This document shows, in pieces, positions 6,062 to 54,876 of a stretch of DNA of 64,000 nt (positions are counted from its first letter, which is position 1; every line of letters starts with the position of its first letter). The notes beneath the pieces were generated by a model. It made no database searches, was not told the origin of the DNA, and saw nothing but the letters and a program-made list of their open reading frames with translations. The translations under genes and the position numbers were made by a program. Source of the DNA: Verrucomicrobiaceae bacterium (lineage in GTDB: Bacteria; Verrucomicrobiota; Verrucomicrobiia; Verrucomicrobiales; Verrucomicrobiaceae); assembly GCA_019694165.1 (NCBI GenBank), contig JAIBCL010000005.1, positions 62,001 through 126,000 on the forward strand. The letters are read 5' to 3'.

Positions 6062-7429
6062 TTATTCCTTCCTCGCTTCCGCTTTCCTGATGGGTGAGAA
6101 GGCCACGCCTTCGATCTCCACGAGCAGATCGGGCCGGCAGACATCCGCCTGCGCATAGATCGCCGGGATGCGGCCCAGCCGACGCTCACAGACGGCGCGG
6201 CACTTCTCGTAGTCGTCGTGATGCTTCACGTACACGCGTACCTTCGCGAGATCGTCGAGCGTGGCACCCGCATCGCTCCAGCCGAGCCGCGCGAAGTTGT
6301 CCGCATCAATCAGTCGCTCGATGTTGGTGAGCGTCTGGTCGGTTTGTTTTTCGATGTCGCCTTTGTGAACGGTCTCCGAGTTCACGATGCTCGCCGTACC
6401 CGAGACCCAGGTGGTGACGTGATCGCCCATGCGCAAGGCCATCGCGCGGGCGAACTTCGGCGTCTTCGGCGAGTAGTGCTCGGGATAGTCGAACGACGGC
6501 GTCTGCAGCGGATTCTCGAGCGGCAGCATCTGCACGTCGTCGCGCTTCGTTTGCAGCGCCAGGCACTCGGTGATCAGCCCCTGGCCCAGCGTGCCGATGC
6601 CGGTGCTCGCCGGATAAATCGCGTGACCATTCCTGCCATGCGCGAGCTTTCGCGAGTGAAATGGCACATGCGCGAAGAAATCCGTGCGCGCGCGGTTGAG
6701 TTCGCGATAGCGCTCGATGTCGCCCTCGATCTCGGTGATGCCACCTTGATAGAGCCAGGTGCGCAGCACGTCATCAAACGTCGCGCCTGCCTCGGCGAGC
6801 ACCGCGTTCATCCCCTCGAAGGCATCGACCGCCTGCTCGTAGGCCGAGCGGCCCTCGAGCCGCAGCGAGCCACCCGAGGCGTAAATCCAGCGCAGCCCGT
6901 CGTGCTCCACCGTGATCAATCGCGGGCTGAGAAACTCCACCTTCGTCGTGCGCGTGCTGATGGCCCACGCCTCGATGGCGATCACCCGGCCATCGCACGG
7001 CGGCTGCACGACGAAGAGCGTCAGCGGCATGTGGTCGCCATGATACGCCTCGAAGAGCTTGCGCACCTTTGGGACGTTGGCCGCGCTGTCCACGAACACC
7101 GTCTGCACCGTCAGCACCATCGGTTCGTTTTGCTGGCGGAGGATGGTGCGCATCGTCGTGATGGCCTCCCACACCTGGTCGCGAAAATCACCGCCGCCTT
7201 CCGGAGTGACCATCAATGCCACGCGCTTGACGCCATCGTAGCCGATGGTGGTGTGATGTTGATTTCCGAGCACGCACGGCGGCACCGCGTGGACGATGCG
7301 GCCCGACGATTCGCCGCCGGGCGTTGCGTAGCGCAGGGAGCAGCCGGATGCGTCGCAGCGGCCATCCAGCAATTCCCGGTCCGGCGTCATCCGGTAGCAG
7401 ATCGGAGTCTCGGCGACGGTTTCGGACAT
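6062..7429 (-). CDS. RidA-family two-domain protein with chorismatase-like N-terminal part, operon copy A
   Basis: This 455-residue protein has no signal peptide, so it is probably cytosolic. The N-terminal two thirds resemble the FkbO/Hyg5 chorismatase fold, itself related to RidA: RTWLYQGG near residue 220, RYRELNRARTDFF, then NGHAIYPASTGIGT. The last about 120 residues are a RidA-like domain (TWVSGTASIVNSETVHKGD, then VCRPDLLVEIEGVAF), with an arginine just before the final strand as in active RidA enzymes. It is the first gene of the operon, with AGAGAGGG before the start. It is a close paralogue of 37983..39326. Whether it is an imine deaminase, a chorismate-type lyase or neither cannot be told from sequence. 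Confidence 0.8.
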   Translation of the reverse strand: MSETVAETPICYRMTPDRELLDGRCDASGCSLRYATPGGESSGRIVHAVPPCVLGNQHHTTIGYDGVKRVALMVTPEGGGDFRDQVWEAITTMRTILRQQNEPMVLTVQTVFVDSAANVPKVRKLFEAYHGDHMPLTLFVVQPPCDGRVIAIEAWAISTRTTKVEFLSPRLITVEHDGLRWIYASGGSLRLEGRSAYEQAVDAFEGMNAVLAEAGATFDDVLRTWLYQGGITEIEGDIERYRELNRARTDFFAHVPFHSRKLAHGRNGHAIYPASTGIGTLGQGLITECLALQTKRDDVQMLPLENPLQTPSFDYPEHYSPKTPKFARAMALRMGDHVTTWVSGTASIVNSETVHKGDIEKQTDQTLTNIERLIDADNFARLGWSDAGATLDDLAKVRVYVKHHDDYEKCRAVCERRLGRIPAIYAQADVCRPDLLVEIEGVAFSPIRKAEARKE

Positions 7430-7489: not shown

Positions 7490-7514
7490 AAAGTTGCACC
7501 ATCAGTACAACTTT
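7490..7514 (-). promoter_or_regulatory. Candidate operator upstream of operon copy A
   Basis: A near-perfect palindrome: AAAGTTG at one end, CAACTTT at the other, with core GTTGTA-N7-TGCAAC when read toward the operon. It lies 63 bases upstream of the first start codon. The same core with the same 7-base spacer lies before the paralogous operon at 37914..37932. This is probably a binding site for a dimeric regulator. The regulator was not identified. Confidence 0.65.
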
Positions 7515-7703
7515 TAACGGTTAGCCCGCCCCGCCTATGCTGTCATTCACCGGGCAATAATTGCCTTCCCTTTCCGGCGCTTCCCCCGAGCGTCATGGTT
7601 GCCACCGGCGGGATTGCCTACAGGCCGTGCAATAGACCAGTTCTCAAAAAGAATGTCACATTGGTGCTGTACCTTTTAGAAACATGGCAATGAGTAGGCG
7701 GCG

Positions 7704-8069
7704 GTGGCCCGCCCGTGCATCGAACTGAACTTGGAGAACGCGACTCTCGCCGAGGTGCGCGTGGCCATAGACTGCACGCCGACAACGAAAGGCTTCCGCC
7801 GCTTGCAAGCGTTGCTCTGGTTGCATGAAGGCATGAGCCACGAGGAAGTCGCCGCGCTTTCCCATTTCAGTCCGCGCCAGGTGCTGCGCTTCATCCAGGC
7901 CTTCAACCTCGCCGGACTCGACGGCCTGATCCCGGGCCGCAGCAGCGGACGGCGGCGCATCGTGCCCAAGGAACAGCTCGCCGAGAAGATCGCGCGGGTG
8001 ATGTATCCGGGAGGCTTTTTCATTAGGGCCTTGTCACACCTCCGTGCAAGTTGCGCCCGCCGCCGATGA
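7704..8069 (+). pseudogene. IS630-like transposase remnant, N-terminal helix-turn-helix part only
   Basis: Residues 1-104 look like the N-terminal HTH region of IS630/Tc1-type transposases: RLQALLWLHEGMSHEEVAALSHFSPRQVLRFI, then GLDGLIPGRSSGRRR. The DDE catalytic domain is missing. After about residue 104 the frame runs into unrelated sequence and stops after 121 residues. The start codon is GTG. The stop codon TGA overlaps the ATG of the next gene (ATGA at 8066-8069), which is probably an accident of the truncation. No terminal inverted repeats were recognised, so the insertion sequence borders are unknown. Confidence 0.55.
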
Positions 8070-16427: not shown

Positions 16428-17027
16428 ATGCCAACTCCGAAGAAACAGCCCGCGAAAACGAAGGCCTCCGCGGCCTCGATCAACGAGAACCTTGGCCGTC
16501 GCGTGAAGAAGCTCCGGGCTGATCGCGCGTGGTCGCTCGAAGACCTCGCCACGGCCAGCGGCGTGAGCCGCTCGATGCTCAGCGAGATCGAGCGTGAGCA
16601 CGCGAATCCCACGCTCACCGTGACGTATCGCATCGCGCAGGCCTTTGGCCTCAGCCTGCAGGATCTGATCGAGACGGCCGAGGCGGCGTCGAACATCCAG
16701 GTCATCCGCGCCGGCGGGCGCGGCCAGATCTTCCGCTCTGACAAGCAATGCCAGATCCGCACCCTCTCGCCGCTGAACCTGGAGAAGGAGACGGAGTTCT
16801 ACGAGCTGACGCTTCGACCAAAAGGCGGGCTGCGCAGCCAGCCGCACTATGAAGGCACGCGCGAGTTCCTCACCGTCGAGGAGGGCGCCGTGCGCATCGA
16901 ATCCGGCGCCGACATCGAGGAACTCGCCAAAGGCGACTCCGGCACCTACCGCGCCGATGTGCCGCACGCCATCATAAACACCAGCGAGGGGGAGAGCGTC
17001 GTATTCCTCGTGGTCATTTACCGGTGA
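16428..17027 (+). CDS. XRE-type transcriptional regulator with C-terminal cupin domain
   Basis: This 199-residue protein has a basic Lys-rich lead (residues 1-20), an HTH_3 domain (about 25-80: LGRRVKKLRADRAWSLEDLA, SRSMLSEIEREHANPTLTVTYRIA), and a cupin_2 domain (about 120-195: ELTLRPKGGLRSQPHY, TVEEGAVRIESGADIEELAKG, DVPHAI). Such proteins usually repress nearby metabolic genes and sense a small ligand in the cupin. No operator was identified. The convergent glycosyltransferase lies downstream. Confidence 0.9.
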   Translation: MPTPKKQPAKTKASAASINENLGRRVKKLRADRAWSLEDLATASGVSRSMLSEIEREHANPTLTVTYRIAQAFGLSLQDLIETAEAASNIQVIRAGGRGQIFRSDKQCQIRTLSPLNLEKETEFYELTLRPKGGLRSQPHYEGTREFLTVEEGAVRIESGADIEELAKGDSGTYRADVPHAIINTSEGESVVFLVVIYR

Positions 17028-37544: not shown

Positions 37545-37795
37545 GAGCCTGTCCGGCAAAAGCACCCGAGAATCACAAGGACGACGACAGGTATTGGGGC
37601 GAACGATTCATCTTCCCCCTCACCCCAGCCCTCTCCCAATGGGAGTGGGGGTGGAACCAACTGCCGCCCTAATCGCGCGCTGTGAGTCTTGTGGTAGGCG
37701 CGGCAGCGCCATCGTCTCCCTCTCCCTTGGGGAGAGGGCTGGGGTGAGGGGTATTTCATTTCTCGTGGTTCGGGTGATCTACCGGACAGGCCCTC
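37545..37795. repeat. Palindromic repeat element, about 251 bp
   Basis: The outer ends carry GCCTGTCCGG on the left and its reverse complement CCGGACAGGC on the right, continuing imperfectly with CACCCGA. The inner arms CCCTCACCCCAGCCCTCTCC and GGAGAGGGCTGGGGTGAGGG are perfect inverted copies. It contains no gene. It occupies most of the 499-base gap between the BNR gene and operon B; the rest of the gap holds the operator at 37914. Confidence 0.75.
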
Positions 37796-37913
37796 AACGA
37801 ACTGCGTGCAAGGCTTGCGACGCCGAATTGACGTTTACCCAGGGCGTGGGCCAAGACTCGCACAGCGAAGGGCAAGGACAGGCAGGTTTTGGCCCCATCG
37901 TGCCGACGTTAAT

Positions 37914-37932
37914 GTTGCAGCGTCGATGCAAC
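37914..37932 (+). promoter_or_regulatory. Candidate operator upstream of operon copy B
   Basis: GTTGCA-N7-TGCAAC, a perfect 6-base inverted repeat, lies 50 bases before the first start codon. The same core, spacer length, preceding CGTTAA and following CTT occur upstream of operon A (7490..7514). This pairing supports a shared regulator. Confidence 0.65.
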
Positions 37933-37982
37933 TTCTATTCAGGAAGCCGCACCCTCGAAAAAAAACCACGGAGGAGCCAGTC

Positions 37983-39326
37983 ATGTCACAAGTTCACGCC
38001 GACGGCCTTGTCGCCCACAGCCTCGCGCCTGATCGTCGCCTTCTCAGCAGCCGCGCTCTTTTCACGATGCGTCATGATGCTGAGGCCGCCGAACTGGAAT
38101 TCCCGCCGCATCTCATCGGCGAGCAGCATCACACGGTGATCGAACTGGGGAATGTGAAGCGGGTGGCGATGATGGTGACGCCGGAGGGGGGCGGGGAGTT
38201 TCGGGATGAGGCTTGGGAGGCGCTCTCGACCATCCGCGCGATTCTGCGCCAGCAGGGTGAGCCGATGGCGGTGACGATGCAGACGGTGTTTGTGCGTGAT
38301 CGCGCGGACGTGCCGGTGGCGAGGCAGGTGTTTGAAGCCTGCTACGGCGAAAAGATGCCGCTCACGCTCTTCGTGGTGCAGCCGCCATGCGACGGACGCG
38401 GCATTGCCATCGAGGCATGGGCGGTGAGCACGGCGTCGGCGAAGGTGGAGTATCACGGCGAGGATCTCGTGACGGTGAGCTACGACGGGCTGCGCTGGAT
38501 TTATGCTTCGGGCGGCTCGCTGCATCTCGACGGACGCACGCCGTATGAGCAGTCGGCGGAGGCGTTCTCCAGCATGAGGCGTGTGCTGGCGCGCGCGGGC
38601 TCGGGTTTTCAGGATGTGGTGCGCACCTGGCTTTACCAGGGTTGCATCACAGAGGAGGTGGATGGCGTGGAGCGCTATCGCGAACTCAATCGCGCGCGCA
38701 CGGACTTCTTCGCGGGCATCGACCTGGAGCACCGGCCCATTTCGGTGGCGAACAACGGCCACGCGATCTATCCCGCCAGCACGGGCATCGGCACGCTTTG
38801 CCACGGACTGGTCACGGCTTGCATGGGATTGCAAACGGAGCGCCAGGACGTGCAACTCCTAGCGCTGGAGAATCCGTTGCAAACCTCCGCCTTCGATTAC
38901 CCGAAGGAATACTCGGTGAAGAGCCCGAAGTTCTCGCGCGCGATGGCGGTGCGCATCGGCGATCATGTCACGACATGGATCTCCGGCACCGCGAGCATCG
39001 TGAATGCTGAGACGGTTCACAAAGGCGACATCGTGAAGCAGACGGAGCAGACGCTCACGAACATCGAGCGTCTGATCGATGCGCAAAACTTCGCTCGGCT
39101 CGGCTGGGAAGGCGCGGGTGCCACCTTCGATGATCTCGCGCGGCTGCATGTGTATGTGAAGCGCCCCGAGGACTACGAGGCGTGCCGCGCCGTGTGCGAG
39201 CGGCGCGTGGGCCACCTGCCATCCATCTACGCCGTGGCGGATGTGTGCCGTCCTGACCTGCTCGTGGAGATCGAAGGCGTGGCCTTCTCCCGCATTCGCA
39301 AACCGTCTTCCAAACCCGCCACATGA
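37983..39326 (+). CDS. RidA-family two-domain protein with chorismatase-like N-terminal part, operon copy B
   Basis: The 447-residue protein is a close paralogue of the one at 6062..7429: VKRVAMMVTPEGGGEFRDEA, MPLTLFVVQPPCDGRG, RTWLYQGCITEEVDGVERYR, NGHAIYPASTGIGTL, TTWISGTASIVNAETVHKGD and VCRPDLLVEIEGVAFSRI. GGAGGAG precedes the ATG at 37983. Upstream in-frame text lies in the promoter region and is not coding. It heads the second four-gene operon. It may act on a small imine, enamine or chorismate-like compound; this is inference from family only. Confidence 0.8.
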   Translation: MSQVHADGLVAHSLAPDRRLLSSRALFTMRHDAEAAELEFPPHLIGEQHHTVIELGNVKRVAMMVTPEGGGEFRDEAWEALSTIRAILRQQGEPMAVTMQTVFVRDRADVPVARQVFEACYGEKMPLTLFVVQPPCDGRGIAIEAWAVSTASAKVEYHGEDLVTVSYDGLRWIYASGGSLHLDGRTPYEQSAEAFSSMRRVLARAGSGFQDVVRTWLYQGCITEEVDGVERYRELNRARTDFFAGIDLEHRPISVANNGHAIYPASTGIGTLCHGLVTACMGLQTERQDVQLLALENPLQTSAFDYPKEYSVKSPKFSRAMAVRIGDHVTTWISGTASIVNAETVHKGDIVKQTEQTLTNIERLIDAQNFARLGWEGAGATFDDLARLHVYVKRPEDYEACRAVCERRVGHLPSIYAVADVCRPDLLVEIEGVAFSRIRKPSSKPAT

Positions 39327-39332
39327 CCTGCC

Positions 39333-41117
39333 ATGAAACCTCATCGGCTACTCGTCCTGCTGGCCGTCACTTCCGCGCTGGTCGCGGCTGACGCGCCAAA
39401 GGTTGCGCAACCCGCCGCGACACCGGCGCTGGCTTCGGTCAGCAAAACCAAGCCGGTGCCGTTTCCGAAATCGCCGCCTGTCAAACCCGCCGCGACACCC
39501 GAGCCGCCGCTCTATGAGAGCACGGCACCGGCGAAGGCGGAGTGCGAGATCGACCGGCTCGTCGTTGCCAAACTCAAGCCGCTCGGCGTGCAGCAAGTGC
39601 TGTGCTCGGATGCGGTGTTCCTGCGGCGCGTCTTCCTGGATGTCATCGGCACGCTGCCGACTGCGGCGGAAGCTCGCGCGTTTCTGGAGGACACGAAGCC
39701 GGGCAAGCGCAGTGCTTTGATCGACCAGCTTCTGCAGCGCGATGAGTTCGCGGTGTATTGGGCCATGAAGTGGAGCGACCTGCTGCGCATCAAGGCGGAG
39801 TTCCCGATCAATCTCTGGCCGAACGCCGCGCAAGCTTATCATCACTGGGTGCTCGCGTCGTTGGAGGACAACAAGCCCTACGATGAGTTCGCGCGCGAGC
39901 TGCTCACGTCGAGCGGCAGCAACTTCCGCGTCGGTCCCGTGAACTTCTACCGTGCGATGCAGAGCCGCACGCCGGAAGGCATCGCATCGACCGTGGCGCT
40001 CACTTTCATGGGCGTGCGCACTGATGGTTGGCAGCCGGAGAAGCTCGCAGGCATGGCGCAATTCTTTGCGCAGACGGGCTACAAGCCGACGAGCGAGTGG
40101 AAGGAAGAGTATGTGTTCTGGGACCCCATCGGCACGCACACGCTGGCGGGAAACATCGCGCCAGGAAAAGCATCCATCGACGAGATCGGCAAACCAGCGT
40201 CCGCACCCACTTCGGATGCGACCAGCGTCAACGCAGCGGGCGAAGCCGTGTTTCCTGATGGCAAGAAGGCGAAACTCACGCAGGATCGCGATCCGCGCGA
40301 GGTCTTCGCCGACTGGCTGATCACGCCGAAGAATCCGTGGTTCACACGCAATATCTCGAACCGCGTGTGGTCGTGGTTGCTCGGTCGCGGAATCATTCAC
40401 GCGCCGGACGACCTCCGTGAGAACAATCCGCCGTCGAATCCCGAGCTGCTCGCCTTCCTCGAAGGTGAGCTGGTGAAGGCGAAGTATGATTTGAAGCATC
40501 TCTACCGGCTCATCTTGAACTCGAATGCGTATCAGTCCTCGTCGCTGCTGCGTGACACGAAGCCCGAGGCGCAGGCGCAGTTCGCGCGCTATCCGCTGCG
40601 CCGCCTCGATGCGGAACTCATCATCGACGCGATCAACAAGATCACCGCCACCACCGAGCTTTACACCAGCGCGATTCCCGAGCCCTTCACTTACATCCCG
40701 CAGGGCGAGCCCGCGATGTCCATCGGCGATGGCAGCATCACCAGTCCGTTCCTTTCGCTCTTCGGACGCTCCGCGCGCGCCACCGGCATGGAGGACGAAC
40801 GCTCGAACAAGTTCATCGCGCCGCAGTGGCTGCACCTGCTGAACTCCAGCCAGATTCAAAAGAAGCTGGAGATGGGCTCAGGCATCAAAGACATCATCAT
40901 GATGCGTCGCGGTCCCACGCACACGCTGGAAGAGCTTTACCTCACCATCCTCTCGCGCATGCCCACGCAGGCCGAGACCGAGAACGCGATGTCCTACGGC
41001 GAGCCGCCGACCGGCGTGAACAAAGCGGGCAAGCCGCGCACCGGCAAACGCACCGAGGACTGGATCGACATCGCGTGGTCGCTCCTCAACAGCAGCGAGT
41101 TTTTGTTCCGTCACTAA
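39333..41117 (+). CDS. DUF1549/DUF1553 secreted protein, operon copy B
   Basis: The 594-residue product has a conventional signal peptide (MKPHRLLVLLAVTSALVAAD), a Pro/Ala/Lys linker, DUF1549 (CSDAVFLRRVFLDVIGTLPT, YWAMKWSDLLRIKAEFPINL) and DUF1553 (NPWFTRNISNRVWSWLLGRG, ENNPPSNPELLAFLEGELVK, RYPLRRLDAELIIDAINKIT). Compared with copy A (4307..6055), it has an extra stretch of about 25 residues in the middle (TLAGNIAPGKASIDEIGKPA). It starts 6 bases after the RidA-like gene, the same spacing as in copy A. Confidence 0.9.
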   Translation: MKPHRLLVLLAVTSALVAADAPKVAQPAATPALASVSKTKPVPFPKSPPVKPAATPEPPLYESTAPAKAECEIDRLVVAKLKPLGVQQVLCSDAVFLRRVFLDVIGTLPTAAEARAFLEDTKPGKRSALIDQLLQRDEFAVYWAMKWSDLLRIKAEFPINLWPNAAQAYHHWVLASLEDNKPYDEFARELLTSSGSNFRVGPVNFYRAMQSRTPEGIASTVALTFMGVRTDGWQPEKLAGMAQFFAQTGYKPTSEWKEEYVFWDPIGTHTLAGNIAPGKASIDEIGKPASAPTSDATSVNAAGEAVFPDGKKAKLTQDRDPREVFADWLITPKNPWFTRNISNRVWSWLLGRGIIHAPDDLRENNPPSNPELLAFLEGELVKAKYDLKHLYRLILNSNAYQSSSLLRDTKPEAQAQFARYPLRRLDAELIIDAINKITATTELYTSAIPEPFTYIPQGEPAMSIGDGSITSPFLSLFGRSARATGMEDERSNKFIAPQWLHLLNSSQIQKKLEMGSGIKDIIMMRRGPTHTLEELYLTILSRMPTQAETENAMSYGEPPTGVNKAGKPRTGKRTEDWIDIAWSLLNSSEFLFRH

Positions 41118-41137
41118 ACCCCAATCACCGAATCACC

Positions 41138-42508
41138 ATGAGCACGTCGAACCTCCATCAGCTCGGCATGACGCTCTGCCGCAACACCACGCGGCGCGAT
41201 GCCATGCAGATCGGTCTCTTCAGCACGGCGAGCCTGCTGTTTGCCAATGCTCGCGCCGCCACCGCGCCACCGCCGCAGGCATTGCCCGGCGCGCCGATCA
41301 AGACCAAGGCGAAGTCCATCATCCAGGTTTTCCTCTGGGGCGGCATGTCACACAACGACACTTGGGACCCGAAGCCTGACGCGGGCTACGATTACAATGG
41401 CCCGATGAAAGCGCCGCTCTCGACCAACGTCGCCGGCATCCAAGTCAGCGAATGGTTCCCGAAGCTCGCGCAGCAGGCGGACAAGTTCTCGCTCATCCGC
41501 AGCATGACGCACGGAAACAACGGCCACGAAACCGCCGCGTATCTCGTGCAGACCGCGCATCAGCCCGGCGAACGGCTCGCGTATCCGAGCGTCGGCGCGG
41601 TGTTCTCGTTCTTCCGTGGCAAGAATTACAAAGGCGCGCTGCCACCTTATGTCGTGCTCACGCAGCCGCAGGGCCGCTTCTCGGAGGAAGGTTTCCTCGG
41701 CGCAAAACTCAAACCCTTTGCCACCGGCGGTGATCCAAATGCCACACGCTTCGAAGTCGAAGGCGTCATCTCGCGCAGCATCAGCGACACGCGACAGCAA
41801 GCGCGGCGCGAATTGCTCGCACGCATGGACACGCTGCGACAGACCGCAGGCGGCGATGCGCAGATCGGCGCATCCGAGCAGATGAAGCTCGAAGCCTATG
41901 ACATGATCCTCGGCAAAGGCCGCGAGGTCTTCGATCTCTCGAAGGAGAAGCCCGACCTGCGCGACCGCTACGGACGCCACACGTTTGGACAAGATTGCCT
42001 CGCCGCGCGTCGCATGGTCGAAGCAGGCGTGCCATACATTGTGATCAACTATCCCGGTGGCTGGGACACGCACAGCAATCACTTCCAGACGATGGGCCGT
42101 CAGGCTCCCGAACTCGACCAGGGACTCGCCGCCTTGCTGCTCGATCTCAAAGAACGCGGCCTGCTCGACAGCACGCTCGTGTGGTGCTGCGGTGAGTTTG
42201 GACGCGGACCGAAGATCGACTGGCAACCGCCGTGGAATGGCGGGCGCAATCATCACGGCAAGGTCTTCTCCGTGCTCGTCGCCGGCGGTGGATTCAAAGG
42301 CGGACACGTCGTCGGTTCATCGGATGCGAAGGCCGAGGAAGTGAAGGACCGGCCCGTGTATCCGGTCGATCTGCTCGGCAGCGTGTATCAGCTCGCGGGC
42401 ATCGATCCGAAGGCCAAACTCCCGCACCCGATGGGACTCGAAGCCCATGTGCTGCCTTACGGTGAGGAGGGCGTGAAGTCCGCCGGTTTGCTCAACGAAA
42501 TCATGTAA
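41138..42508 (+). CDS. DUF1501 family secreted protein, operon copy B
   Basis: The 456-residue protein has a Tat-like N-terminus (TTRRDAMQIGLFSTASLLFA). DUF1501 motifs are FLWGGMSHNDTWDPKPDAGY, FSLIRSMTHGNNGHETAAYL, VINYPGGWDTHSNHFQTMGR, CCGEFGRGPKIDW and NGGRNHHGKVFS. Relative to copy A, the metal-site region HIDTF reads HNDTW here. The ATG at 41138, 20 bases after the DUF1549 gene, is preferred over a long upstream frame that overlaps it. Confidence 0.9.
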   Translation: MSTSNLHQLGMTLCRNTTRRDAMQIGLFSTASLLFANARAATAPPPQALPGAPIKTKAKSIIQVFLWGGMSHNDTWDPKPDAGYDYNGPMKAPLSTNVAGIQVSEWFPKLAQQADKFSLIRSMTHGNNGHETAAYLVQTAHQPGERLAYPSVGAVFSFFRGKNYKGALPPYVVLTQPQGRFSEEGFLGAKLKPFATGGDPNATRFEVEGVISRSISDTRQQARRELLARMDTLRQTAGGDAQIGASEQMKLEAYDMILGKGREVFDLSKEKPDLRDRYGRHTFGQDCLAARRMVEAGVPYIVINYPGGWDTHSNHFQTMGRQAPELDQGLAALLLDLKERGLLDSTLVWCCGEFGRGPKIDWQPPWNGGRNHHGKVFSVLVAGGGFKGGHVVGSSDAKAEEVKDRPVYPVDLLGSVYQLAGIDPKAKLPHPMGLEAHVLPYGEEGVKSAGLLNEIM

Positions 42509-42520
42509 CCACGCATCATC

Positions 42521-44644
42521 ATGAAAACGACATTGCTTGGGGTCGTGCTCGCCGCCACCGCGGCGATGACGTTCGCGGCACCGAAGGTGAAAGGCCAGTC
42601 CTCGCGCCCATACATGGGCTACGTCTATCCCGCCGGCGGCCAGCAGGGCACCGCCTTCGCGGTGAAGATCGGCGGCCAGGCGATCGATGACGTCACCGGC
42701 GTCATCGTCAGCGGCGGCGGTGTTTCGGCGAAGGTGCAGAAGTGCTTCAAGAAGATCGGCCCGCAGGAGATGACGCTGCTGCGCGATCAGTTGCGTGAAT
42801 TGAAAGCCGCGCGCAAAACCGCGAAGACGCCCGATCCCGCCGCAGATGATCTCATCGCGCGCATCGAGAAGCGCATCGAAGAATACTGCCAGCGCCCTGC
42901 GAGCGCCGCGCTCGCGGGGTTGGTCTTCCTCGAGTTCACCATCGCAAAAGACGCGGTGCCCGGTAAGCGCGAGCTGCGGCTTGTGGTGCCGAATGGCGTC
43001 TCGAACCCGCTCGCATTTCACGTCGGCCAGCATCCCGAGCACACGCGCAAGCCCATGCTCACCGCCGAGTTCATCGTGCTCGGCAAGGAGCAGCTCGCCC
43101 TGCGCAAGCGGCCCGCCGATGAAGAGGAAGTGCGCGTCACACCACCCTGCACGCTCAATGGCCAGATCGCGTCCGGCGAGATCAACCGCTACCGCTTCAC
43201 CGCGCGCAAAGGCCAGCGCCTCGTCATCTCCGCGCTCGCGCGGCAGTTGATCCCCTTCATCGCCGACGCCGTTCCCGGCTGGTTCCAGCCCGTGCTCGCG
43301 CTCTACGATTCGAAGGGCCGCGAGATCGCCTACCAGGATGACTTCCGCTTCAAACCTGATCCCGTCGTGCTCTTCGATGTGCCGCAGGACGGCGAATACG
43401 TCGCCGCCATCTCGGATGCGATTCACCGTGGACGCGAGGATTTCGTGTATCGCATCACCATCGGCGAGGAGCCCTATCTCACCAGCGTCTTCCCGCTCGG
43501 CGGTCCGGTGGGCGAGACGCACGCCGTGAAGATGCAAGGCTGGAACCTCGAAGGCGCGACTTTGAAACAACCCGCGAAGGACGCTGCCGCAGGCTTGCAA
43601 AGCGTCGCCGCCATCGTGAAAGGCGTCGTGTCAAACGCCGTGCCCTTCGCGCTCGATACCCTGCCTGAGACCTTCGACAAAGAACCGAACGACGCTCCCA
43701 CCGCCGCGCAAAAGGTCACGCTGCCCGTCATCGTGAACGGTCGCATCGACAAGAAAGGCGACTGGGATGTCTTCGAGTTCCAAGGCAAGGCAGGCCAGGA
43801 CATCGTCGCCGAAGTCTATGCGCGTCGGCTTGATTCACCGATGGATCCCGTGCTCAAGATCACCAGCGCCGACGGCAAGCTGCTCGCCTTCAACGACGAC
43901 CACGAAGACGCCGGCAACGGCGTGAACACGCACCACGCCGACTCCTACGCCGCACTGAAACTGCCCGCCGACGGCGTGTATCGCGTCCACATCGGCGACA
44001 CCGTGCGCGGCGGCGGCGATGAATACGGCTACCGCCTCCGCATCAGCGCCGCGCGTCCCGACTTCGCACTGCGCACCGTGCCCTCCAGCGTCACGCTGCG
44101 CACGAAGTCCGGCGGCGGAAACATCACCGTGTATGTGCAGCGCAAAGACGGCTCCACCGGCCCCATCACCGTCTCGCTCAAGAATCCGCCCGCCGGCATC
44201 TCGTGCAAACCCGTCACCCTCACCGGCACGCAAACCGTCGCACGCCTCGCCATCAAATGCGATCTGCCCGCCACCACGCAGCCCATCGACCTCATCGTCA
44301 CCGGCAGCATGGCCACCGCGCAAGGCAAGCCGCCAGTCCAGCACGACGCCGTCCCCTGCGAAGACCGCATGCAAGCCTTCCTCTGGCGCCACCTCGTCCC
44401 CGCGCAGGATTTGAAAGCCGTGATCTACGACGCCGAACACAAACCCGCACCTAAACGAGTGATGCCGCCGCCCTCACCCGCGGATGTGGAAGAAGCGAAG
44501 AAGAAACTCGCCGGCAGCACGGCGAAGTTTACGAAGAGCCAGGTCACCGGACGTTTGCGCCAGATCGAAGACCTCTATCAGGAAGGACTGCTCACCGACG
44601 CCTTCACGTCAAAGCGCGTGGCGGAATGCACCGTGCAGGAGTGA
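42521..44644 (+). CDS. Secreted PPC domain protein, operon copy B
   Basis: The 707-residue protein is a paralogue of 760..2823. Signal peptide LLGVVLAATAAMTFAAPK; N-terminal domain from YVYPAGGQQGTAFAVKIGGQ with a charged helical insert; PPC-like domains at about 210-320 (LNGQIASGEINRYRFTARKG) and 405-508 (VNGRIDKKGDWDVFEFQGKA); then a terminal beta domain. A Lys/Ala-rich C-terminal extension of about 70 residues (VEEAKKKLAGSTAKFTKSQV) is missing from copy A. It starts 12 bases after the DUF1501 gene and ends the operon. Confidence 0.85.
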   Translation: MKTTLLGVVLAATAAMTFAAPKVKGQSSRPYMGYVYPAGGQQGTAFAVKIGGQAIDDVTGVIVSGGGVSAKVQKCFKKIGPQEMTLLRDQLRELKAARKTAKTPDPAADDLIARIEKRIEEYCQRPASAALAGLVFLEFTIAKDAVPGKRELRLVVPNGVSNPLAFHVGQHPEHTRKPMLTAEFIVLGKEQLALRKRPADEEEVRVTPPCTLNGQIASGEINRYRFTARKGQRLVISALARQLIPFIADAVPGWFQPVLALYDSKGREIAYQDDFRFKPDPVVLFDVPQDGEYVAAISDAIHRGREDFVYRITIGEEPYLTSVFPLGGPVGETHAVKMQGWNLEGATLKQPAKDAAAGLQSVAAIVKGVVSNAVPFALDTLPETFDKEPNDAPTAAQKVTLPVIVNGRIDKKGDWDVFEFQGKAGQDIVAEVYARRLDSPMDPVLKITSADGKLLAFNDDHEDAGNGVNTHHADSYAALKLPADGVYRVHIGDTVRGGGDEYGYRLRISAARPDFALRTVPSSVTLRTKSGGGNITVYVQRKDGSTGPITVSLKNPPAGISCKPVTLTGTQTVARLAIKCDLPATTQPIDLIVTGSMATAQGKPPVQHDAVPCEDRMQAFLWRHLVPAQDLKAVIYDAEHKPAPKRVMPPPSPADVEEAKKKLAGSTAKFTKSQVTGRLRQIEDLYQEGLLTDAFTSKRVAECTVQE

Positions 44645-49582: not shown

Positions 49583-49762
49583 TCACTTCATCCGTCGGCG
49601 GATGGCGATGACAAAGCCGCCGATGATGACGACGGGGAGGCCGATCAACGCGCCCGTGGTGGCAAGGTAGGCTTTGCGCGCATGATTGCCCTGGAAGCAG
49701 ACGGCGCAGGCACTGGCCTGAACGGTGCCGAGCAGCAGGAAGCTGAGGGCGAGGGCTTTCAT
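49583..49762 (-). CDS. 59-residue membrane protein with CxxC motif, cytochrome oxidase cluster
   Basis: The start at 49762 gives MKALALSFLLLGTVQASACA, a cleavable signal or first helix, then AVCFQGNHARKA and a second hydrophobic segment (LIGLPVVIIGGFVIAIRRRM). The ACAVC pair would face the periplasm after processing. Starting 10 bases after the last subunit III gene, it is likely the last gene of the oxidase operon. It may help metal delivery or thiol chemistry during oxidase assembly; this is inference. Confidence 0.65.
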   Translation of the reverse strand: MKALALSFLLLGTVQASACAVCFQGNHARKAYLATTGALIGLPVVIIGGFVIAIRRRMK

Positions 49763-49772
49763 CGACCGGAGA

Positions 49773-50381
49773 TCATGTGAGATAGACGAGCACGTAGAGG
49801 AACGGCCACAGGCCGACGACAAAGTACCAAAACACCTGCGCCGCCCAGAAGCGCGTGACTCGCAGCGTGCCGCCCGCGAAGGTATGATAGACGTGCATCA
49901 TCAGCACCAGTGCGGCCACGGCGTGCAATCCGTGCGCGCCGATGATGAGGTAAAAAAAGCTGCCGTAGCTGCTCGATTGAAGCGTGAGGCCGAAGTGAAT
50001 GAGGCGCATCCACTCCATGCCCTGCACGGCGACGAAAAGTGATCCGAGCCAGACGGACCAGCGCAGGAGTTTCGCCGTGGCGGCGGCGGGTTTTGCATCG
50101 CGCATCGAGCGGGCCGCGAGCCACAGCAGCACGCCGCTGGCGAGGAGCACGAGCGTGTTCCCAGCCGTGGTGAGCAGGGGCAGGCGTGGCTGGCCGGGCG
50201 GCGGCCACTCTCCGGCGGAGCCGCGCACGACGAACTGCGCGGAGATCAGCGCGGCGAAGAACATCAGCTCGCACGCCACGAAGAACGACATGCCGAGCAC
50301 CGCGTCAGGGATGATCTGACGGCGCGTGTGCCGGCGTGGAACGTTAGGTACGGATGACACGGCGGCAGCGTTCATCATCAA
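49773..50381 (-). CDS. Cytochrome c oxidase subunit III-like protein, second copy
   Basis: This 202-residue integral membrane protein has about five helices: FFVACELMFFAALISAQFVV, LLTTAGNTLVLLASGVLLWL, LLRWSVWLGSLFVAVQGMEW, YGSFFYLIIGAHGLHAVAAL, FWYFVVGLWPFLYVLVYL. The motif GSFFYLIIGAHGLHAV and the terminal WPFLYVLVY are typical of subunit III. Its start overlaps the subunit IV stop (ATGA-type), so translation is coupled. It is unlike the other subunit III (50784..51371) in detail; the two probably form one oxidase together or alternate. Confidence 0.85.
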   Translation of the reverse strand: MMMNAAAVSSVPNVPRRHTRRQIIPDAVLGMSFFVACELMFFAALISAQFVVRGSAGEWPPPGQPRLPLLTTAGNTLVLLASGVLLWLAARSMRDAKPAAATAKLLRWSVWLGSLFVAVQGMEWMRLIHFGLTLQSSSYGSFFYLIIGAHGLHAVAALVLMMHVYHTFAGGTLRVTRFWAAQVFWYFVVGLWPFLYVLVYLT

Positions 50382-50740
50382 TGATGCGCAGGCTCAGCAG
50401 CGGCGGGCGGAGGCGTGGAGAGGCTCTTCCAGTTCACACCATGTGATTTCATGACATCGGGCGCCACGCCGTAGAAAAGCACCAGGAGGAAACACACCGC
50501 CATGACCAACACCCACCAGATGTACTTCCGCTCGATGTTCAGATGCATGAAGTAGGCGGCGACCATCAACGCTTTCACGACGGCGACTCCGAACGCAGTG
50601 ACGAGCAGGACGGTGAGTCCGCCCATCATCGGGCCGACGATGCTGACGACGAGCAGGCAGAGCAGGACGCCATACACCTTGTAGTAGAAGGAGGGTGGAT
50701 GGCTGTGATCGTGGGCTTCGGTGTGGACTGAGTCGGACAT
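50378..50740 (-). CDS. Cytochrome c oxidase subunit IV family protein
   Basis: The 120-residue protein has a His-rich N-terminus (TEAHDHSHPPS) and three hydrophobic helices (YKVYGVLLCLLVVSIVGPMM, GLTVLLVTAFGVAVVKALMV, AAYFMHLNIERKYIWWVLVM), then a Pro/Ala tail. The AAYFMHLNIERK segment is the usual hallmark of bacterial oxidase subunit IV. It sits between two subunit III-like genes. Confidence 0.88.
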   Translation of the reverse strand: MSDSVHTEAHDHSHPPSFYYKVYGVLLCLLVVSIVGPMMGGLTVLLVTAFGVAVVKALMVAAYFMHLNIERKYIWWVLVMAVCFLLVLFYGVAPDVMKSHGVNWKSLSTPPPAAAEPAHH

Positions 50741-50783
50741 GACGAGGAAGGGCGGGATGAGGTTCGTATGCGGCGTGTCTTTC

Positions 50784-51371
50784 TCACGCTGCGCTGGCGA
50801 TGTAGAACAGCGGGAAGAGGAAAAGCCAGACGAGATCGACGAAGTGCCAGTAGATGCCGATGTACTCGACACGCGGGAGGAATTTCCCTTTCGCCACATC
50901 CGGAAGGATGATGGCCATGATGGTCATGCCGCCCACCACATGCAGGGCATGAAGTGCGGTGGCCGTGTAGTAGAAGCTCCAGAAGACGCTGCGCGTGATG
51001 GTGAAGCCGTGGCTGATCTCGGAGGTGTATTCGTACGCCTTTACGCAAAGGAAGACGAGTCCGCCGAGGATGGTGTAGGTGAGGTACCTCTTCGCGTTGA
51101 CCGTGTCCTTCTTGGTGGCGGCGAGATGCGCGAGCACCACGGAAAGGCTGGAGGTGAGCAGCACAAAGGTGTTGAAGGCCCCGGCGGCCAGCTTGGTGTG
51201 CGCGGCCTCGGCGGCCCACTCGGGATGGCGCAGCCGGAAGAGGATGTAGCAGGTGACGAGACCGCCGAAGATGACGATTTCTGAAGCCAGCACCCACCAG
51301 ATGGCCAGACGGCCCGTCGGGATGCCGGTGACGCTACGGGTGGTGGCGACGGGGATTTGGAATGCGCTCAT
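50784..51371 (-). CDS. coxC: Cytochrome c oxidase subunit III
   Basis: The protein has 195 residues, starting MSAFQIPVATTRSVTGIPTG. Its helices include AIWWVLASEIVIFGGLVTCY, TFVLLTSSLSVVLAHLAATK, TYTILGGLVFLCVKAYEYTS, FYYTATALHALHVVGGMTIM and YWHFVDLVWLFLFPLFYIAS. The ALHALHVVGG and YWHFVDLVW signatures mark genuine subunit III. The gene is 34 bases after coxA. Confidence 0.92.
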   Translation of the reverse strand: MSAFQIPVATTRSVTGIPTGRLAIWWVLASEIVIFGGLVTCYILFRLRHPEWAAEAAHTKLAAGAFNTFVLLTSSLSVVLAHLAATKKDTVNAKRYLTYTILGGLVFLCVKAYEYTSEISHGFTITRSVFWSFYYTATALHALHVVGGMTIMAIILPDVAKGKFLPRVEYIGIYWHFVDLVWLFLFPLFYIASAA

Positions 51372-51405
51372 GCGATGCGGTTGGAAAAATTGCGCGGTGG
51401 CAGGT

Positions 51406-53115
51406 TCAGTTCGCGGCGTTCTGCGGCCAGTAGTCGTCCTCGCGGCCGGGCACGCTGTATTCATAGGGACCGCGGTGGACTTCCGGCAGTTCGGGCCAGT
51501 TGCCATGCGGCGGCGGCGAATCGGCGGCCCATTCGAGCGTGTTCGCCTTCCACGGATTCGCTCCCGCCGGCGCACCAGCGAAGAGGCTCTTGAGGACATT
51601 CCAGATGAACGGAAGCTGGAAGGCCATCATCACCAGCAGTGCATGCGTGGCGATGACACGCATCTTCAGCATACCCGGCGTCGCCAGCTCAGCGAAGCCG
51701 CTGTAGTCGTAGATGCGGCGGTGCTCGCCGGCGAGTCCGCTGAAGAAGAGCGGGATGAAGACGAAATTGAACGCGATGGCCGTACCCCAGAAGTGAATCT
51801 GGCCGAGGCGCTCGTCGAGCATCTTGCCCGTCACCTTCGGGAAGTAATAGGTGAAGATGGCGAAGCCGCCGAATGCGACGAGCGGGATGAGCGTGTAGTG
51901 GAAGTGCGCGACGACGAAGTAGGTGTCGTGGAAATACACGTCGAGCGCGCTTGAGCCGAGGTAGATGCCCGTCACGCCGCCGAGGAGAAATTCGACGATG
52001 ATGCCGACGGCCCAGAGCATGGGCACCTTGAAGTCGATCGACCCTTTGAACATCGTGGCGATCATGCCGAACATGATGACGGCCACGGGGATGGAGATGA
52101 TGATCGTCGTGAGACTGAAGATCGATGCCATGCGCGGGTCGATGCCGGCGACGAACTGATGATGCGCCCACACGACCATGCTCAGGATGCCGACCATGAA
52201 AGTGGTATAGACCATCGTCTTGTAGCCGAAGAGCGGCTTGCGTGAGAAGACGCAGATGATCTCGCACACGACGCCGAGTTCCGGAAGCAGCAGCACATAC
52301 ACCTCGGGGTGGCCGAAGAACCAGAAGAGATGCTGCCACAGCACCGGATCACCACCTTGCGCGCCAAAGAAGTGCGTGCCCACGGTTTGATCCAGCAGCA
52401 GCATCACCGCACCGGCGACGAGCGGACCGACGGACATCATGAAGATGATGGTGGCGATCACGATCATCCAGACGAGCACCGGCATGTCGAACATCTTCAT
52501 GCCCTTGGCGCGGGAGTTCATCGCGGTCGTGATGAAATTGATGCCGCCGAGCAGGAAGGCCACGATTTCGAGTGCGACGGCGAGGAGCCAGATCTTGTTT
52601 CCCCACGGCGTCATGTTGTAGTCAGCCTTGGCGGAGAGCGGCGGATACGAAGTCCACGCGCCGCCGAACGCGCCGCCCGGAGCGATGAATCCGAGAAGCA
52701 GAAGCACCGTGGAGAGGAAGAAGATTTGGAACGACAGGCGGTTCACGCGCGGGAACACCATGTCGTCGCACCCGATCATCAGCGGAATGCAGTAATTGCC
52801 GAGGCCCGCAAGCAGGACAGGCATCGCCACCCAGAAGATCATGATGGTGCCGTGATTGGTGACGAGCGAGTTGTAAGCCGCCGGGGAAAGCACGCCGTAG
52901 AACGGAATGTGCGCCGTCGGATTCGCCAGATGCATGCGGAACACATAGGACATGTACACCCCGACGACGGCCATGAACATGCCGGTGAGTGTGTACTGCA
53001 GGGCGATGACCTTGTGATCGCAGGAGAAGAGATACTTGCTGAAAAAACCTTGCGGCTCGTGATGCGCGTGCGCGTCGGCCTGATGTGCGGGCGCGGTGAC
53101 GGAGGATGGATTCAT
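51406..53115 (-). CDS. coxA: Cytochrome c oxidase subunit I
   Basis: The 569-residue catalytic subunit reduces oxygen to water and pumps protons. Haem and CuB ligands are visible in NHGTIMIFWVAMP, WFFGHPEVYVLLLPELGVVC (with the Tyr cross-link site HPEVY), WAHHQFVAGID and HDTYFVVAHFHYTLIP. Twelve or more membrane helices are expected. The start MNPSSVTAPAHQADAHAHHE at 53115 is His-rich; upstream text overlaps coxB and is excluded. The context is coxB upstream and coxC downstream. Confidence 0.97.
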   Translation of the reverse strand: MNPSSVTAPAHQADAHAHHEPQGFFSKYLFSCDHKVIALQYTLTGMFMAVVGVYMSYVFRMHLANPTAHIPFYGVLSPAAYNSLVTNHGTIMIFWVAMPVLLAGLGNYCIPLMIGCDDMVFPRVNRLSFQIFFLSTVLLLLGFIAPGGAFGGAWTSYPPLSAKADYNMTPWGNKIWLLAVALEIVAFLLGGINFITTAMNSRAKGMKMFDMPVLVWMIVIATIIFMMSVGPLVAGAVMLLLDQTVGTHFFGAQGGDPVLWQHLFWFFGHPEVYVLLLPELGVVCEIICVFSRKPLFGYKTMVYTTFMVGILSMVVWAHHQFVAGIDPRMASIFSLTTIIISIPVAVIMFGMIATMFKGSIDFKVPMLWAVGIIVEFLLGGVTGIYLGSSALDVYFHDTYFVVAHFHYTLIPLVAFGGFAIFTYYFPKVTGKMLDERLGQIHFWGTAIAFNFVFIPLFFSGLAGEHRRIYDYSGFAELATPGMLKMRVIATHALLVMMAFQLPFIWNVLKSLFAGAPAGANPWKANTLEWAADSPPPHGNWPELPEVHRGPYEYSVPGREDDYWPQNAAN

Positions 53116-53134
53116 GTGGGCGTGGAGTGCTGGC

Positions 53135-53926
53135 TTATTTCTGCGGAGCGGGCGCAGGTGCGGGTGTAGCTGGAGCAGGAGCAGGCGTCGGGGCCGCAGC
53201 CGGCGCAGCAGAAGGAGCACCGGCGCCCGTCGGTGCGGCAGAAGCCGCGGGTGGCATGACGGCGGAAGCGCCCTGCGCCTTCATCCACGCATCGTATTCT
53301 TCCTGTGTCTGCACAGTGACGCGCGCCGCCATGTAGCCGTGGCCGATGCCGCAAATCTGCGTGCACTGAACGTCATACTTGCCGGTGGCCGTCGGTTTCA
53401 CCCAGCCAGTGATGCTGCGGCCGGGAATCGTGTCCTGCTTGAACCGCATCACGGGGATGCAGAAGGAATGCAGCACGTCCTTCGATTGAAGATTGAGATG
53501 CACCGTCTTGTTCACGACAAGATGGAGGTCATCGACGGTCACGATGTCATCCGGCGTGTCGAGTTTTCCGTCCGGACCTTCGTGGCGGAACGTCCACGCC
53601 CACTGCTGGCCGGTGACGTCCACCTTGTGATCGGCGGCGGGCAGATCTTCCTTGATGTTTTTCCACACGCTGGCCGTCGCCACGTCGATCCAGCCGTCGC
53701 ACATCACCACCAGAATCACGGGACCCATCACCCAGCCCATCTCGCGCCATGACTTGCCGGTGATGTAAGCTGCCTTCGGGTTGTTCTTGCGGCGGTAGCG
53801 GAACGAAAAGTAAAACACCACCGCCTGCGCGACGATGAACCAGAAACCGATCAGCGCCGTGACGAGCCAGAAAAGGCCGTCGACGTCCGCCGCATATGAA
53901 GAGAGTCCTTTGATCCAGTGATTCAT
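53135..53926 (-). CDS. coxB: Cytochrome c oxidase subunit II
   Basis: The 263-residue protein has two N-terminal helices (GLFWLVTALIGFWFIVAQAV and WVMGPVILVVMCDGWIDVAT), then a CuA cupredoxin domain with QWAWTFRHEGPDGK, DVLHSFCIPVMRFKQDTIPG and CTQICGIGHGYM (Cys-x3-Cys-x3-His-x2-Met, the CuA site). It ends in an Ala/Pro repeat tail (APAPATPAPAPAPQK). No C-terminal cytochrome c domain is fused; a separate dihaem cytochrome (54178..54876) precedes it. Confidence 0.95.
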   Translation of the reverse strand: MNHWIKGLSSYAADVDGLFWLVTALIGFWFIVAQAVVFYFSFRYRRKNNPKAAYITGKSWREMGWVMGPVILVVMCDGWIDVATASVWKNIKEDLPAADHKVDVTGQQWAWTFRHEGPDGKLDTPDDIVTVDDLHLVVNKTVHLNLQSKDVLHSFCIPVMRFKQDTIPGRSITGWVKPTATGKYDVQCTQICGIGHGYMAARVTVQTQEEYDAWMKAQGASAVMPPAASAAPTGAGAPSAAPAAAPTPAPAPATPAPAPAPQK

Positions 53927-53937
53927 GCCATGCGGAG

Positions 53938-54111
53938 TTAGAGGACTTCGGTCACGATCATCGCGATGAAGGCGGCGCAGACCACGACGGTGACGCCGAA
54001 CATGATGAAAGCCACGCGGTGTTCATTGGCACCGGCAGCCGTATGTGAAACCGGCATGGCGGCTGTCGCTTCGGCGGAGCCGGCGCTCTGGGCGATGGAT
54101 GGTTGAGGCAT
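53938..54111 (-). CDS. 57-residue single-span membrane protein of the oxidase operon
   Basis: Between the cytochrome c gene and coxB a frame begins at ATG 54111: MPQPSIAQSAGSAEATAAMP, then HTAAGANEHRVAFIMFGVTV, then a hydrophobic end (VCAAFIAMIVTEVL) before TAA at 53938. It has one transmembrane helix at the C-terminus, as in small oxidase subunits. It is 11 bases before coxB and the codon use fits a real gene. It has no recognised family. Confidence 0.65.
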   Translation of the reverse strand: MPQPSIAQSAGSAEATAAMPVSHTAAGANEHRVAFIMFGVTVVVCAAFIAMIVTEVL

Positions 54112-54177
54112 GGGGTTGTGAGGTTTTGGGTTGAAAGGTAGAATTGAAATCAGAACGGAAGCGATCCCGGGAAGGGA

Positions 54178-54876
54178 TCACGGCTTGCCGCTGAGCGTCT
54201 TGATGTAGGCGATGATGTCGCGGTCAGCCTCGGCCACGGTCGCGCCCATGCCCTTGGCCATCGCGGGCAGCGCATCGCGCACCATCGGCACCATGCGGAA
54301 GCCCTCGGCGTCCTTCACGCCGCCGCGCACGCCGTTGCGGAATTTTGCCAGTTGCTCCTGGATGTACCAGGACTCCAGCGGCACCTGCGAGGGAGCGTGG
54401 ATGTTCGGGTCAGGATTACCCTGCGAGTTCGCACCGTGGCACGCAAGGCACACCATCGAGTAGAGCTGCTGGCCGCGCTTCACGTCGGCGGCGGCGTCAG
54501 TCTTCTCGGTTTTTCTCGGGAGGCTCGCCACGTAGGCGGCCACGGCCTTGATCTCGTCGTCATTCGCCAGCGAGCGCGCCATCGCGCGCATCATCAGGCC
54601 CTTGGTGTCCTCCGGATGCGCGCCACGCAGATCGGCGCGGAATTTCCTGAGCTGATTCTCGACGTACCAGGCGTCCACTCCCGCGATCGATGGAACACGG
54701 AGCGCTCCCGCCGTCATGCCCTGGGCATCAGGGCCGTGGCAGTTGATGCACCGGGTGAACAACAGCCGCCCGCTGCCAGCATCCGCCTCCGCCGCCTTCA
54801 TTTGCGTGGCGGCGCAGGACAGGACAACACACGCGAGAAGATGAGCGATGGAGGCGGAGAGATGACGTGGGCGCAT
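54178..54876 (-). CDS. Periplasmic dihaem cytochrome c
   Basis: The 232-residue protein has a signal peptide (SIAHLLACVVLSCAATQMKA) and two c-type haem sites, CINCH and CLACH, each followed by a cytochrome c fold: LRVPSIAGVDAWYVENQLRK with a methionine pair, and APSQVPLESWYIQEQLAKFR. The two halves are similar, as in cytochrome c4. It probably feeds electrons to the CuA site of the oxidase that follows. It is the first gene of the oxidase operon; the upstream gap is divergent. Confidence 0.93.
   Translation of the reverse strand: MRPRHLSASIAHLLACVVLSCAATQMKAAEADAGSGRLLFTRCINCHGPDAQGMTAGALRVPSIAGVDAWYVENQLRKFRADLRGAHPEDTKGLMMRAMARSLANDDEIKAVAAYVASLPRKTEKTDAAADVKRGQQLYSMVCLACHGANSQGNPDPNIHAPSQVPLESWYIQEQLAKFRNGVRGGVKDAEGFRMVPMVRDALPAMAKGMGATVAEADRDIIAYIKTLSGKP

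Follow-up and report, generated by a model that had tools for sequence, protein, structure and literature searches.

In Escherichia coli, NsrR is an [Fe–S] repressor that senses NO. NsrR sites have been described upstream of hmp and ytfE in this species, with the published consensus gATGyAT-N5-ATrCATc (PMC1274295). In Streptomyces coelicolor the NsrR gene itself has an nsrR operator, the central 7 bp of the operator do not count among the key determinants of ScNsrR binding, and residues His42, Lys45 and Arg60 either touch the DNA or are positioned for it (PMC9338935). A separate literature concerns PSCyt/PSD gene sets with partners such as DUF1501. Verrucomicrobia and Planctomycetes have many of these sets, whose function is unknown; nothing is known of what PSCyt2/PSD1 neighbourhoods do, although carbohydrate metabolism has been suggested (PMC5615132). 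At the level of titles and abstracts, the literature searched yielded no description of an NsrR regulon in Verrucomicrobia. Here, we describe an inverted repeat upstream of two such gene sets that is very probably the docking site of an NsrR-like, NO-sensing repressor, tying both sets to NO metabolism.

The window, i.e., the whole stretch of 64,000 nucleotides analysed, encodes two paralogous four-gene operons. Operon B lies on the plus strand and includes a Rid-family/FkbO-Hyg5-like gene (37983–39326, 447 aa), a PSCyt2 (DUF1549) plus PSD1 (DUF1553) gene (39333–41117), a DUF1501 gene (41138–42508, start chosen by eye within the ORF 40826–42508), and a gene with a bacterial pre-peptidase C-terminal (PPC) domain (42521–44644). 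Operon A, on the minus strand, consists of a paralogue of the first gene (6062–7429, 455 aa, 66% identity), followed by counterparts assigned by eye from sequence likeness: a PSCyt2/PSD1-type gene (4307–6055), a DUF1501-type gene (2844–4229, start also by eye), and a PPC-type gene (760–2823). The first gene of both operons combines a Rid-type C-terminal domain with an FkbO/Hyg5-like part, and the two proteins score 174.5 and 170.8 bits against the FkbO/Hyg5 chorismatase model TIGR04444, below its cut-off of 325. As in the freshwater Verrucomicrobia neighbourhoods previously described (PMC5615132), the PSCyt2–PSD1 gene adjoins a partner family of unknown function; unlike in these neighbourhoods, the pair belongs to an operon of four genes, the first of which is Rid/FkbO-like, and the operon has a shared operator and, in relatives, nor neighbours.

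The sequence-only reading had reported one inverted repeat, GTTGYA-N7-TGCAAC, 5' of both operons, and both its positions and its distances to the start codons proved correct. Site B (GTTGCAGCGTCGATGCAAC, 37914–37932, plus strand) stands 50 bases 5' of the ATG at 37983, and site A (GTTGTACTGATGGTGCAAC, 7493–7511, minus strand) 63 bases 5' of the ATG at 7429. A pattern search of the whole window returned no further exact match, again as stated. In their 25-bp symmetric form, the predicted operators span 37911–37935 (plus strand) and 7490–7514 (minus strand), with position matrix scores of 26.5 and 30.6, respectively, while all other window positions score <8 and the best score over ten shuffled windows is 14.8. 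The two repeats share a CGTTAA flank on their 5' side, at slightly different distances from the repeat start (7 vs 8 bases). The surrounding DNA is otherwise unlike, as had been claimed: over 300 bp upstream of each operon, site included, A and B align with a local score of 13, compared to a mean of 11.8 and a maximum of 19 for shuffled sequences. A sigma-70 promoter was searched for upstream of operon B and not found.

At the genome scale, where scans were run on patterns and not on the position matrix, the repeat is nearly unique. The genome-wide scan for GTTGYA-N7-TGCAAC that had been proposed as a check returned only sites A and B as exact matches in the 7.8 Mb genome, with ~0.9 matches expected from base composition alone. 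When the 25-bp symmetric motif was searched with ≤1 mismatch, four sites were obtained across the whole genome, one each at the two operons, a dihaem cytochrome c gene, and an Rrf2-family regulator gene, against one match for a reversed-pattern control; since the letters of this motif were picked after the sites had been seen, the scan tests specificity, not discovery. Among 26 one-mismatch sites of the genome whose surroundings were classified, 25 fall within predicted genes and one (L218) is intergenic and weak; the cytochrome c site was the exception that mattered. Further exact matches in relatives (L035, L038, L039, L040, L078, and others) are located within predicted genes and were set aside as chance-like.

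The closest relatives identified by protein search are Prosthecobacter and other Verrucomicrobiaceae metagenome-assembled genomes, and the genome is probably itself a member of this family. In relatives, conservation of the site before orthologous Rid operons is partial: the site is kept in G022, G023, G025, G028, G030, G045, and G050, weak in G026, and absent in G003, G004, G005, G012, G024, G049, and G057. B-type operons in G022, G023, G028, and G050 carry a perfect repeat at −65 whose spacer differs, and A-type operons carry sites scoring 24–25 in six genomes (G022, G023, G025, G028, G030, and G045) and 16.7 in G026. In another family of the same order (G167 and G080), sites are located 158–179 bases upstream, and the G167 site could serve either of two genes since a divergent gene lies on its other side. 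The match between site and regulator is imperfect in both directions, i.e., the Rid operons of G003, G004, G005, and G024 are without a site although the regulator is present, and G028 has Rid operons with sites but no regulator of the relevant clade among the Rrf2 matches listed. A second element, approximately YCAAYNNATGCRTRG, was noted by eye upstream of operon A (about 7530–7550, minus strand). It is kept upstream of A-type Rid operons in two families, including many without an NsrR-type site (loci L084–L099, L118, and L124, by eye), and is probably an older promoter or operator.

The second place at which the repeat is conserved is upstream of a dihaem cytochrome c gene, where exact matches in relatives lie about 37 bases before the start. 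In the genome under study this gene is on contig C46, and its site is GTGGCA-N7-TGCAAC (L146, score 24.8). Across 63 scored cytochrome c promoters (one genome entered twice), scores fall into two groups, with 33 promoters at ≥16.9 and the remaining 30 at ≤2.6. The presence of this site follows that of the candidate regulator described below: in a table compiled by hand for the 62 genomes with a readable promoter, 27 have both, 2 the regulator only, 5 the site only, and 28 neither (p 2e-10, which overstates the case because the species are related and the matrix was trained on many such sites). The five genomes with a site and no detected regulator (G006, G007, G009, G027, and G030) are all drafts. 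NsrR-type sites were also identified at genes for HPP-family membrane proteins in G022, between two divergent HPP genes (L072:942–960), and in G023 (L073:5061–5079). Cytochrome c promoters (L126–L178) additionally show a tetramer, CGTT, exactly 6 bases 3' of the dyad and 12–16 bases before the ATG. It persists in many relatives without the dyad at this promoter, and is perhaps the −10 element of a near-leaderless transcript.

The candidate regulator was traced through a near-match on contig C12 and a perfect match in G001, both upstream of Rrf2 genes. The gene is outside the window on the same contig (C12, 320835–321212, minus strand), ~0.22 Mb from operon B, and its product has an Rrf2 domain (PF02082, 107 bits, cut-off 30). 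In all 28 clade orthologues with readable promoters, the dyad precedes the start of the regulator gene by 46–71 bases, and it is absent from the promoters of other Rrf2 clades. An alignment over 128 aa gives 44% identity to E. coli NsrR, and among solved structures the protein is closest to Streptomyces NsrR (5n07, E 2.6e-19). Among NCBIfam models, NsrR ranks first (112 bits) and RirA second (105.5 of 193, also below the cut-off). Scores against the NsrR equivalog NF008240 are 112 bits (G000) and 123 bits (G045), below the cut-off of 182, hence we name the protein NsrR-like and not NsrR. The alignment with E. coli NsrR shows no variation at residues C88, C96, C102, D6, and R10, D6 and R10 correspond to ScNsrR Asp8 and Arg12, and H37, K40, and the wing RGRGGG align with ScNsrR His42, Lys45, and Arg60. 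Cysteine spacing differs between the three proteins, being X7, X5 here, X4, X5 in E. coli NsrR, and X5, X5 in Streptomyces NsrR (ScNsrR Cys93/99/105). By analogy with these proteins, the regulator would carry a [4Fe-4S] cluster and sense NO. In most inspected relatives, the gene after the NsrR-like one encodes a protein of ~438 aa (EDEYENAPI..., L296:936–2249, minus strand) that matches no Pfam or NCBIfam model.

The motif itself is of the NsrR type. The symmetric matrix reads WWW-S-W-TGYA-N7-TRCA-W-S-WWW, and has the TGYA-N7-TRCA core and spacing in common with the published consensus (PMC1274295); its central 7 bp are unconserved, matching the ScNsrR operator (PMC9338935). We built this matrix from 61 Verrucomicrobia sites without any E. 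coli sequence (one entry, rrf2_G035, is a non-site scoring −3.4 and has a small weight) and applied it to 24 kb of E. coli sequence from the neighbourhoods of hmp, ytfE, and nsrR, where the hmp and ytfE promoters each gave one strong hit, at 23.6 and 26.4, respectively, and the next best score was 8.7. Sites A and B differ from the NsrR consensus at 4 and 3 positions, i.e., more than 2 mismatches in each case, and thus represent a variant motif: the half-site is mostly GTTGYA here and GATGYA in known NsrR operators, although GATGCA half-sites do occur before the regulator in G023, G025, G050, and G053. The system resembles those of E. coli and S. coelicolor in the Rrf2 fold, the three Cys, the Asp and the Arg, and the operator core, and its predicted autoregulation has a parallel in S. 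coelicolor (PMC9338935), whereas its predicted targets are Rid–PSCyt2–DUF1501–PPC operons, cytochrome c, and, in G022 and G023, HPP genes, not hmp or ytfE. Three things are new: the set of genes in the regulon, GTTGYA as half-site, and C-X7-C-X5-C as the spacing of the ligands. A CytR-like operator (TGCAA-N2-3-TTGCA, or AATGCAAC..GTTGCATT) was ruled out, as the arms are reversed here (GTTGCA..TGCAAC) (PMC3454398).

Taken together, we consider it highly probable that the repeat serves as an operator of NsrR type for an NsrR-like repressor that also controls its own gene, with NO releasing the repression of four promoters. As expected for this family, an NsrR-like Rrf2 homodimer would bind the repeat and, in its [4Fe-4S] form, would repress rather than activate both operons, the dihaem cytochrome c gene, and its own gene; NO (or loss of the Fe–S cluster) would damage the cluster, the dimer would leave the DNA, and the genes would be expressed. 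The suggestion that one dimeric regulator controls both modules, made from the two sites alone, is supported by the genome scan, by conservation in relatives, by the mirror-symmetric variation of the arms, and by a candidate regulator whose own gene is preceded by such a site. Beyond that suggestion, the first genes of the operons are paralogues, the regulon also holds the cytochrome c gene and the regulator, and the site is of NsrR type.

The same Rrf2 protein could instead read iron or Fe–S status, in the manner of RirA or IscR. We regard this as unlikely, though it deserves some weight: RirA is the second-best NCBIfam model, and SufS- and SufU-like genes (by eye) adjoin the regulator gene in this genome, whereas NsrR is the top-scoring model, the operator matches E. 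coli NsrR operators, suf genes are absent beside the regulator in G045, G023, and G043 (by eye), and the targets are linked to NO-reductase genes. With RirA, a rhizobial iron regulator, the protein shares the Rrf2 family; the motif comparison covered NsrR sites, which the operator matches. It is very unlikely that a different regulator reads the site. An XRE-cupin gene between the operons (16428–17027), present in 51 of 68 genomes, was rejected in this role on its genome distribution, as it is absent from G006 and G007 despite perfect sites and occurs in many genomes that lack the cytochrome c site. In G000, G012, and G049, a second Rrf2 protein is encoded next to nor genes, but it belongs to a clade of its own, and the nor regions scanned are without an NsrR-type site.

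Two further readings do without a DNA-binding protein at this site. The repeat might act as a hairpin in the mRNA leader, with a 6-bp stem and a 7-base loop, and both sites can indeed fold (−7.1 kcal/mol for A and −5.9 kcal/mol for B), site B even being listed as terminator-like by a scan. Such an RNA has hardly any probability, however, because conserved sites such as those of the cytochrome c gene in this genome and of G003 are unable to form it, and most regulator promoters (CATGCA..TGCAAG) keep the cores with outer bases that cannot pair. The degeneracy is mirror-symmetric, as for a dimer, with GTTGTA on the left in some species and TACAAC on the right in G003, and a double change in G001 preserves the dyad; a search of the window for Rfam matches returned none. 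Finally, the likeness of A and B might be a functionless relic of operon duplication. The operons are paralogous, with first genes at 66% identity, but the rest of their upstream DNA is alike only at the level of shuffled sequences, and the site precedes unrelated genes in many species; this explanation, contradicted by the four-site genome scan, is the least probable of all, and we give it practically no credence.

Under the NsrR-type operator reading, a link between these operons and NO is suggested by their neighbourhoods in relatives. A cNOR-type NorB (PDB 3o0r, E 7e-118), accompanied by NorQ-like and, as assigned by eye, NorC- and NorD-like genes, adjoins a Rid operon in G012, G026, G049, G022, G023, G028, and G050. 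Of 68 family genomes, 16 have a Rid operon and 11 have NorB, and every genome with NorB is one of those 16 (p 3e-9, uncorrected for kinship). From this gene neighbourhood, the Rid–PSCyt2–DUF1501–PPC module may serve NO reduction or NO stress; that the operon is an NO-responsive partner of NO reductase is, in our estimation, about an even bet. If true, this would be the first functional handle on the widespread and unexplained planctomycete-specific cytochrome gene modules. With the NsrR-type operator and the tie to NO-reductase genes, at least one branch of the PSCyt/PSD sets can be tested under a defined condition (NO). No NsrR-type site was found at the nor genes in the regions scanned. The second, nor-linked Rrf2 (C-X6-C-X5-C; L347:443–922, plus strand; L348:10420–10977 and L352:11300–11770, minus strand) is a candidate nor regulator that would read a different site.

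Several other features were noted in passing. NorB is 100% identical in G050, G022, G023, and G028 (L331–L334), which are classed as different species, and these four genomes look the same across the nor genes and operon B; either an island has moved recently or bins are mixed. Divergently upstream of A-type Rid operons lies a gene for a protein that looks secreted and has a bacterial globin domain (L084:4143–4757, L088:2246–2839, and L348:1812–2465, all minus strand; Pfam for the first two, likeness for L348). Within the window, a helix-turn-helix fragment resembling the N-terminus of an IS630-type transposase (IS assignment by eye) is located at 7704–8069 (plus strand), and a long imperfect inverted repeat (CCCTCACCCCAGCCCTCTCCC... 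/ ...GGGAGAGGGCTGGGGTGAGGG) at 37610–37760, between operon B and an upstream BNR-repeat gene (by eye). Also by eye only, a cytochrome oxidase type cluster is found at 49586–54876 (minus strand), including a second dihaem cytochrome c-like gene at 54181–54876.
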